Positions 20,481-64,000 of a stretch of DNA of 64,000 nt are shown in pieces. The position numbers were made by a program, and so were the translations under genes. The DNA comes from Candidatus Poribacteria bacterium. GTDB taxonomy: Bacteria > Poribacteria > WGA-4E > WGA-3G. The notes beneath the pieces were generated by a model that was not told the origin of the DNA, did no database searches, and worked only from the letters and a program-made list of their open reading frames with translations. Numbering within the stretch: the stretch's first letter is position 1; each line of letters begins with the position of its first letter. Where the stretch lies: assembly GCA_026706025.1 (NCBI GenBank), contig JAPOZO010000050.1, positions 62,001 to 126,000 on the forward strand, in the 5' to 3' direction.

Positions 20481-20528
20481 TACAGTGGGTTCAATAGGAA
20501 TTTAATTGGGTGCTGGCGAGGTTCCCGC

Positions 20529-20970
20529 ATAGGTATCAATTTAGGGTTTAGATTGCCCGCAGCACCGTAGGTTGGGTTGAACGGATGCCACCGAAACCCT
20601 AAAATCATAGAAAAACACAACTTTCTCCAGATACGCCATAGCCACCAGGGACCGAGTGAAACCCAACGCTTTTACTTTCAAACTCCTCGGACGATGAACG
20701 TGTAAAGTTGGGTTTCACTGCGTTGTTGAATAGATAGAACAGGATATTGACTTTCATGTGTGTTTGGCATATCAATACCCAAGTTCTCAATGGCGTTCAA
20801 CCCAACCTACGCGCCTGAAGGAGTTTTGAAGTCTTTAAGGTTTCCGCGGAGTATCCGGTTCGGTTGGGGGATTTAGTCTGGGAATAGACTAAATCCATTC
20901 CTTGTATCACATTCCGAACCTACCGGACCTGGGTGCCCTGGCGGTTATTTTTTCTAAAATTGACACCTAT
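20529..20970. mobile_element. MITE-like element, copy A, with 21-bp flanking direct repeats
   Basis: Ends are imperfect inverted repeats: ATAGGTATCAATTTA on the left (20529-20543) and the complement of ATAGGTGTCAATTTTA on the right (20955-20970). Immediately outside, 20508-20528 and 20971-20991 are direct repeats (GGGTGCTGGCGAGGTT plus five bases, one mismatch in 21). The right about 155 bp (from CTGAAG at 20814) match copy B at 63497-63773, including the perfect internal palindrome GGATTTAGTCT...AGACTAAATCC. The left interior differs and holds another inverted-repeat block (20566-20811). No protein is encoded, so it is non-autonomous at best. Confidence 0.65.
20566..20811. repeat. Nested inverted-repeat block inside element copy A
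   Basis: A perfect 18-bp inverted repeat, CGTAGGTTGGGTTGAACG at 20566-20583 and its complement at 20794-20811, encloses 210 bp. Within it a second inverted pair, GTGAAACCCAAC at 20656-20667 and GTTGGGTTTCAC at 20707-20718, forms an inner stem. Copy B lacks this block, so it looks like a separate palindromic insertion. Confidence 0.65.
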
Positions 20971-21020
20971 GGGTGCTGGCGAGGTTTCCGCCACCAGCGA
21001 AAAAACTACGCAAGTTCTGA

Positions 21021-63392: not shown

Positions 63393-63453
63393 TCATTTAG
63401 TTTTAAGAAATTATCCGATTTCATATCTTCTTTTACAGATCCGGTGCGGTTAG
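63393..63453. repeat. TTTTAAGAAATTATC dispersed repeat, copy 2
   Basis: TCATTTAGTTTTAAGAAATT through TTTCATATCTTCTTTT to GATCCGGTGCGGTTAG; the best match to copy 1 at 18685-18746, with only a handful of differences in about 60 bp. Confidence 0.72.
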
Positions 63454-63496
63454 AATGCAGGTCGCATTTGGGCGAGTACGCCGCAAAACACGCACC

Positions 63497-63773
63497 ATAG
63501 GTGTCAATTTAGTGATTTTTTGATGGCATTTTAGCATAAATGATATAAACATGCCGCCCTTACAGGGCTGAGGAAACGAGGGAAACGCGTTTCTATAAAC
63601 ATTGCGTCCCTACGGGACTGAAGAGGGCTTTGAGATCTTCAAGGTTTCCGCGTAGTATCCGGTTCGGTTAGGGGATTTAGTCTGGGAATAGACTAAATCC
63701 ATTCCTTGTATTACATTCCGAACCTACCGGACCTGGGTCCGAGGCGGTTTTTCTCCTTAAATTGACGCTTATG
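63497..63773. mobile_element. MITE-like element, copy B, with 21-bp flanking direct repeats
   Basis: Left end ATAGGTGTCAATTTA (63497-63511), right end TAAATTGACGCTTAT (63758-63772), inverted repeats with two mismatches. Outside, 63476-63496 and 63774-63794 are direct repeats (GTACGCCGCAAAACACGC plus three bases, one mismatch in 21). From CTGAAG at 63614 onward it aligns with copy A at 20814-20970, including the palindrome GGATTTAGTCT...AGACTAAATCC (about 63676-63703). Non-coding. Confidence 0.65.
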
Positions 63774-64000
63774 GTACGCCGCAAAACACGCCCCTACCGG
63801 GCCTGGGGAAAATCGGAATTACCGATTTAAATAATTAAACTTCATGAAACCGCCCCTACCGGGCCTCTTAACCGAGTCCTGAGTCCTGATAACTAATAAC
63901 TGAAAGGTTTTCGTAGAAAACCGTACTGACAACTACTATAAAATCTTGCCAACATCCTCTATAACTGATATAATACACACAGATTTAATTCATCACCTCG

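Follow-up and report, generated by a model that had tools for sequence, protein, structure and literature searches.

The stretch of DNA analysed here (the window) comprises 64,000 nucleotides of a contig from a Candidatus Poribacteria genome (G000) and contains two short elements, A and B, each bounded by terminal inverted repeats and set between two copies of a target duplication. Element A (20528-20971) is a 444-bp MITE without a transposase gene, with a left terminal inverted repeat on the forward strand (20528-20543; CATAGGTATCAATTTA) and a right one on the reverse strand (20956-20971; CATAGGTGTCAATTTT on that strand), each with one mismatch against the consensus. The 19-bp copies of its target duplication, GGTGCTGGCGAGGTTCCCG on the left (20509-20527) and GGTGCTGGCGAGGTTTCCG on the right (20972-20990), are identical at 18 of 19 positions. 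Element B (63496-63773), a 278-bp MITE, starts with a perfect consensus repeat on the forward strand (63496-63511; CATAGGTGTCAATTTA) and ends with a repeat carrying two mismatches on the reverse strand (63758-63773; CATAAGCGTCAATTTA on that strand). It is flanked by the 20-bp copies GTACGCCGCAAAACACGCAC (63476-63495) and GTACGCCGCAAAACACGCCC (63774-63793), identical at 19 of 20 positions. The inverted ends and flanking direct repeats that the first-pass annotation had described are thus present at both loci where it placed them. Within element A there is also a perfect 18-bp inverted repeat (CGTAGGTTGGGTTGAACG; 20566-20583 and 20794-20811, 210 bases apart), and an Rfam search at locus A returned no match. 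The target of copy B lies in a REP-like unit of about 70 bp (ATCCGGTGCGGTTAGAATGCAGGTCGCATTTGGGCGAGTACGCCGCAAAACCGCACCTACCGGGCC type; window 63440-63500), which recurs at many loci across the genus.

The two elements have a right-end block in common (20806-20971 in A, 63609-63773 in B), which is 88% identical over the 167 columns of a pairwise alignment. The shared right end of about 155 bp noticed earlier is therefore real, but it incorporates a separate dispersed repeat, copies of which (L012, L022) have no element end within 1.5 kb; since this repeat also occurs away from element ends, the block is not purely element sequence. The end motif is strongly enriched. Allowing up to three mismatches, the window contains five occurrences of CATAGGTGTCAATTTA, where 0.54 would be expected, and four of them are the ends of A and B. 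Across the whole genome, 189 ends match with up to two mismatches, compared with three for a reversed-pattern control; the genome contains about 95 such elements. Of 24 genomes sampled within the genus, 22 have these ends; of 16 from outside, one does. In all, 133 elements bounded by terminal inverted repeats were collected, 131 of them from the genus.

Among the loci examined, a full-length relative carrying a transposase between matching ends, as the first-pass annotation had proposed to look for, was found at L073/L096. This 1.46-kb IS has the same ends as the MITEs and a single 466-aa ORF, which terminates within the right end. Its product matches DDE_Tnp_1 (PF01609; E 4.9e-25) and the NCBIfam IS4 model NF033592 (197.4 bits, cutoff 115), and a search of PDB sequences gave no match. 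The catalytic D, D and E residues align with those of relatives, and their spacing (D71D132-133E) in a single ORF falls within the D(60-110)D(100-150)E arrangement of the IS4 family, as do the 5'-CATAGG ends within the 5'-CA rule. The Y(2)R(3)E(6)K signature is incomplete: R, E and K are present, and the tyrosine position holds V or I in the genus and A in L130/L131; tyrosine is retained in the relatives from Methylobacter (L133) and Chlorohelix (L321). Matches to the transposase occur in 12 of 38 genomes of the genus; one of them (G018) holds five identical full-length copies, four of which sit at separate loci between undamaged duplications. With respect to this IS, A and B qualify as MITEs, being short, devoid of a transposase and equal to the autonomous element in their ends and duplication length. 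They share only about 20-27 bp with it at each end and are therefore not simple deletion products. No transposase gene was detected in the 6.27-Mb assembly that contains the window, so the elements may at present be immobile there; multi-copy ISs are frequently missing from such assemblies.

The length of the duplication depends on where the element is taken to begin. The terminal C of the element is invariant, and the next base outward may come from the target. When duplications were scored with the two bases beside ATAGG set aside at each end, the repeats comprised 17 or 18 bases only. The inner of these two bases deviates in four elements (L007, which is window copy A, L201, L254 and L271), where it represents target sequence; consequently, C is the first base of the element, which leaves a duplication of 19 or 20 bp. 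The same four elements exclude counting CC as element sequence, which would give 17-18 bp, and leaving the terminal C out of it, which would give 21-22 bp. As target duplications, the 21-bp repeats reported earlier amount to 19 bp in A and 20 bp in B, the terminal C/G being part of the element. In the genus, 62 of the 131 elements retain a direct duplication, which is 19 bp long in 25 and 20 bp long in 37, with no other length. The remaining 69 have no recognisable duplication, which we assume to reflect recombination between copies, nesting or decay.

These lengths lie outside the duplications of about 10 bp (7-13 bp) published for IS4 subgroups (PMC2266710). On the strength of that published range, the elements might be regarded as ordinary IS4-type MITEs with duplications of about 10 bp, the longer repeat being an alignment coincidence in palindromic DNA. 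This is scarcely credible, as it is contradicted by perfect 19-20-bp duplications at non-palindromic sites and by the 20/20 duplication of the Chlorohelix relative. At non-REP sites, 22 of 43 elements have a duplication (nine of 20 bp, 13 of 19 bp), whereas re-pairing of left and right flanks gave 0.35 on average and never more than 3; at REP sites the corresponding figure is 40 of 88 (28 of 20 bp, 12 of 19 bp), against 7.7 on average and at most 16.

Empty sites were sought by querying joined flanks for uninterrupted loci, followed by base-level alignment, and single-copy empty sites were obtained for three insertions. A 277-bp MITE (L050, contig C26 of G000) has such sites in G015 (97%) and G011 (95%), a full IS of G010 (L098) in G047 (90%) and G013 (83%), and a MITE of G006 (L085) in G011 (88%). 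Two candidates were not counted, namely the empty loci of L208, which have extra bases at the target, and the match of L258, which is a diverged paralogue. For copy B, the empty-site search gave REP-level matches only. At locus A, the gene neighbourhood is preserved in five relatives, all without the element; the spacer has diverged, the exact target is not conserved, and this divergence precludes an empty site at single-base resolution. Element B has a twin on another contig of the same genome (G000:C34:92708-92984), identical at 277 of 277 bases and flanked by a different 20-bp duplication, GTGCGGTTTCCTAACCGCAC.

It might be argued that tandem or paired repeats pre-existed around the insertion point, or that the flanking palindrome belongs to the element ends, given that the palindromes are dispersed (72 perfect cores) and that many of them carry no element (L091, L094). 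We consider this very improbable: the empty sites hold one copy, which refutes it for the three insertions above, the flanks match within a copy and differ between copies, and unique non-palindromic sequences are duplicated as well. The insertion signature recognised by the first-pass annotation is borne out by distinct repeats at each site, by identical elements with different repeats and by the single-copy empty sites. The two outcomes that it named as fatal to this reading, a lack of further copies with distinct flanks and empty sites already containing both repeats, were checked, and the reading was not refuted. Its choice between an unusual enzyme and pre-existing repeats falls mostly to the enzyme, as the duplication is newly made at insertion and measures 19-20 bp also at unique non-palindromic sites. 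The other option holds insofar as the elements insert preferentially into a dispersed REP palindrome, but the second copy of the repeat is new. Taken as a whole, the earlier interpretation is partly supported.

The commonest duplicated sequence is a palindrome core, GGTGCGGTT-N3/4-AACCGCACC, present in 72 perfect copies in the genome and often found within CCCGGTA...TACCGGG arms, one on each side of the element. These target palindromes have the form expected for GTAG-type REPs: they are GTAG-led, conform to CCCGGTAGGTGCGG...CCGCACC, are dispersed, and accompany a gene for a RAYT (REP-associated tyrosine transposase; NF047646, 122 bits, cutoff 80), which palindromes adjoin. A REP-like palindrome flanks 88 of the 131 elements, compared with six of 4000 random 24-mers, and REP palindromes without an element exist in number. 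The non-REP targets show a weak inverted half-site, with G at -1 (70%), G at +1 (89%) and T at +2 (64%). The preference for REPs, together with the finding that 21-bp REP palindromes yield 19-bp duplications and 22-bp ones 20-bp duplications, would fit a process in which the palindrome is cut as a hairpin. Such hairpin cutting is unlikely to be the source of the duplication, since the 22 non-REP sites, many without any palindrome, show the identical 19 or 20 bp, and since the length is always 19-20 bp, whereas copies of IS1630 reportedly range from 16 to 26 bp (PMC3317919).

The presence of RAYT genes in the same genome and the use of REPs as the usual target could also suggest that the RAYT itself moves the elements. 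To our knowledge, HUH enzymes of the RAYT kind make no target duplication and need no long terminal inverted repeats; both properties count against this possibility, and the genus has a DDE transposase encoded between precisely these ends, so that mobilisation by the RAYT appears highly improbable. A RAYT gene was itself observed between IS4-type ends at several loci (L194:4260-5248, that is G000:C10, about 109260-110247; L088; L119:737-1424). The loci of this unit in G000 and G015 are orthologous (97%), with an identical 20-bp REP duplication flanking both, and in G004 the unit, about 690 bp long, lies within an array of three elements at a non-homologous locus. Owing to this difference in position, the RAYT gene appears to have been mobilised together with its IS-type ends. 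In a few copies (L123 1486-2952, L215 1501-1864 and L133), the central bases of the REP flanks are inverted between the two sides; we did not take this as a sign of hairpin processing, because recombination between copies explains it equally well.

Considering these data together, A and B are very probably MITEs moved in trans by an IS4-related, cut-and-paste DDE transposase with a 19-20-bp stagger and a preference for REPs. The transposase of the parent IS would pair both CATAGG... ends of a MITE and join them to the target on opposite strands, at positions separated by 19 or 20 bp, and gap repair would then generate the duplication. The action of this transposase on the MITEs in trans is an inference, and so is a stagger of two helical turns, a full turn longer than that of IS4 relatives. 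The target would be an inverted pair of half-sites, roughly G^GTG...CAC^C, best matched by the REP palindromes of the genome, which would explain why most copies are located within REPs, with the core of the REP duplicated. As the duplication rebuilds the REP on both sides of the element, insertion can recur and produce arrays (L248, L252, L119).

In the transposase tree, the Poribacteria proteins form one clade with those of Methylobacter and two Chloroflexota, Chlorohelix and Herpetosiphon (98/98; 100% of 200 bootstrap trees), while the other group, comprising the 9-bp cases and IS231-like proteins, is by label not one clean block. The duplications of the Methylobacter, Chlorohelix, Herpetosiphon and outside relatives each rest on single copies. 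The Methylobacter luteus element (L133) lies in a REP with 41 copies found, and its 20-bp flanks match at 18 of 20 positions, the two central bases differing; one copy is the whole basis for this case, as a search for further Methylobacter copies found only that one. The Herpetosiphon duplication (L322) is about 20 bp long. A search of viral contigs with the Chlorohelix and Methylobacter proteins gave no match. Three relatives from outside the clade, from Chitinophagaceae (L141), Bacteroidales (L145) and Sphingobacteriaceae (L146), resemble the parent IS in their related transposase and in insertion into REP-like palindromes. They have ends of the CATAGCCGTCA or CATTGCCGTCA type (CATAGCC-type) and, in contrast to the Poribacteria elements, duplicate 9 bp at the palindrome centre (L146 with one mismatch), about one helical turn less. 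The D2-E spacing is 132-133 in the 19-20-bp clade, compared with 135-137 in the 9-bp relatives. In three further relatives outside the clade (L144, L148 and L143), the IS is flanked by inverted, not direct, repeats.

Compared with the IS231 and ISH8 subgroups of the IS4 family (PMC2266710), the Poribacteria IS is similar in its single DDE ORF, D71D132-133E spacing, R(3)E(6)K residues, 5'-CAT ends, length near 1.46 kb and expected cut-and-paste transposition, and differs in the 19-20-bp duplication, the replacement of the YREK tyrosine by V or I and its separate clade. As two IS4 hallmarks, the duplication length and the YREK tyrosine, fail, we regard it as an IS4-related group outside the named subgroups. 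ISRm22, an IS4-family element of Sinorhizobium, inserts only into REP palindromes and duplicates 6 bp at the palindrome axis (PMC1525189), whereas the Poribacteria elements duplicate the whole REP core. IS1630, an IS30-family element of Mycoplasma fermentans, has duplications of 16-26 bp in M64, and the title of a study cited in that source (Calcutt 1999) refers to targeting and duplication of inverted repeats (PMC3317919). It belongs to another transposase family with variable lengths; the Poribacteria IS has neither an IS30-type transposase nor variable duplications, its length being fixed at 19-20 bp, non-palindromic sites included. The IS1202 family contains one subgroup with 16-28-bp duplications beside relatives with 3-5 bp, and is characterized by a TnsB-like transposase, 5'-TGT ends and no reported REP target (PMC10132070), unlike the Poribacteria IS, for which DDE_Tnp_1 was the only hit and whose ends are 5'-CATAGG. 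A literature search, with ISfinder itself outside its scope, revealed no paper describing this IS4-related group.

More tentatively, the elements of Poribacteria, Methylobacter and Chloroflexota might constitute a cross-phylum IS4-related subgroup that joins its ends two turns apart, on REP palindromes in the Poribacteria and Methylobacter cases, combined in Poribacteria with a loop between REPs, RAYT and IS. In such a loop, the RAYT would spread REPs, and the IS and its MITEs would use them as regenerating targets; every insertion would leave two intact REPs, leading to arrays, and the RAYT gene would itself be carried between IS-type ends.

Duplication length reflects the geometry of strand transfer and serves in IS classification. 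A duplication of about 20 bases is roughly double the published amount for the IS4 family, and this IS4-type case joins the short list of long-duplication ISs (IS1202, IS1630). The 19-20-bp clade beside 9-bp relatives with similar catalytic spacing provides a natural pair for examining what determines the stagger of a DDE transposase. The preference for REPs gives these elements a self-renewing target, and this is one way to account for the tandem arrays in which MITEs and REPs occur in these genomes.
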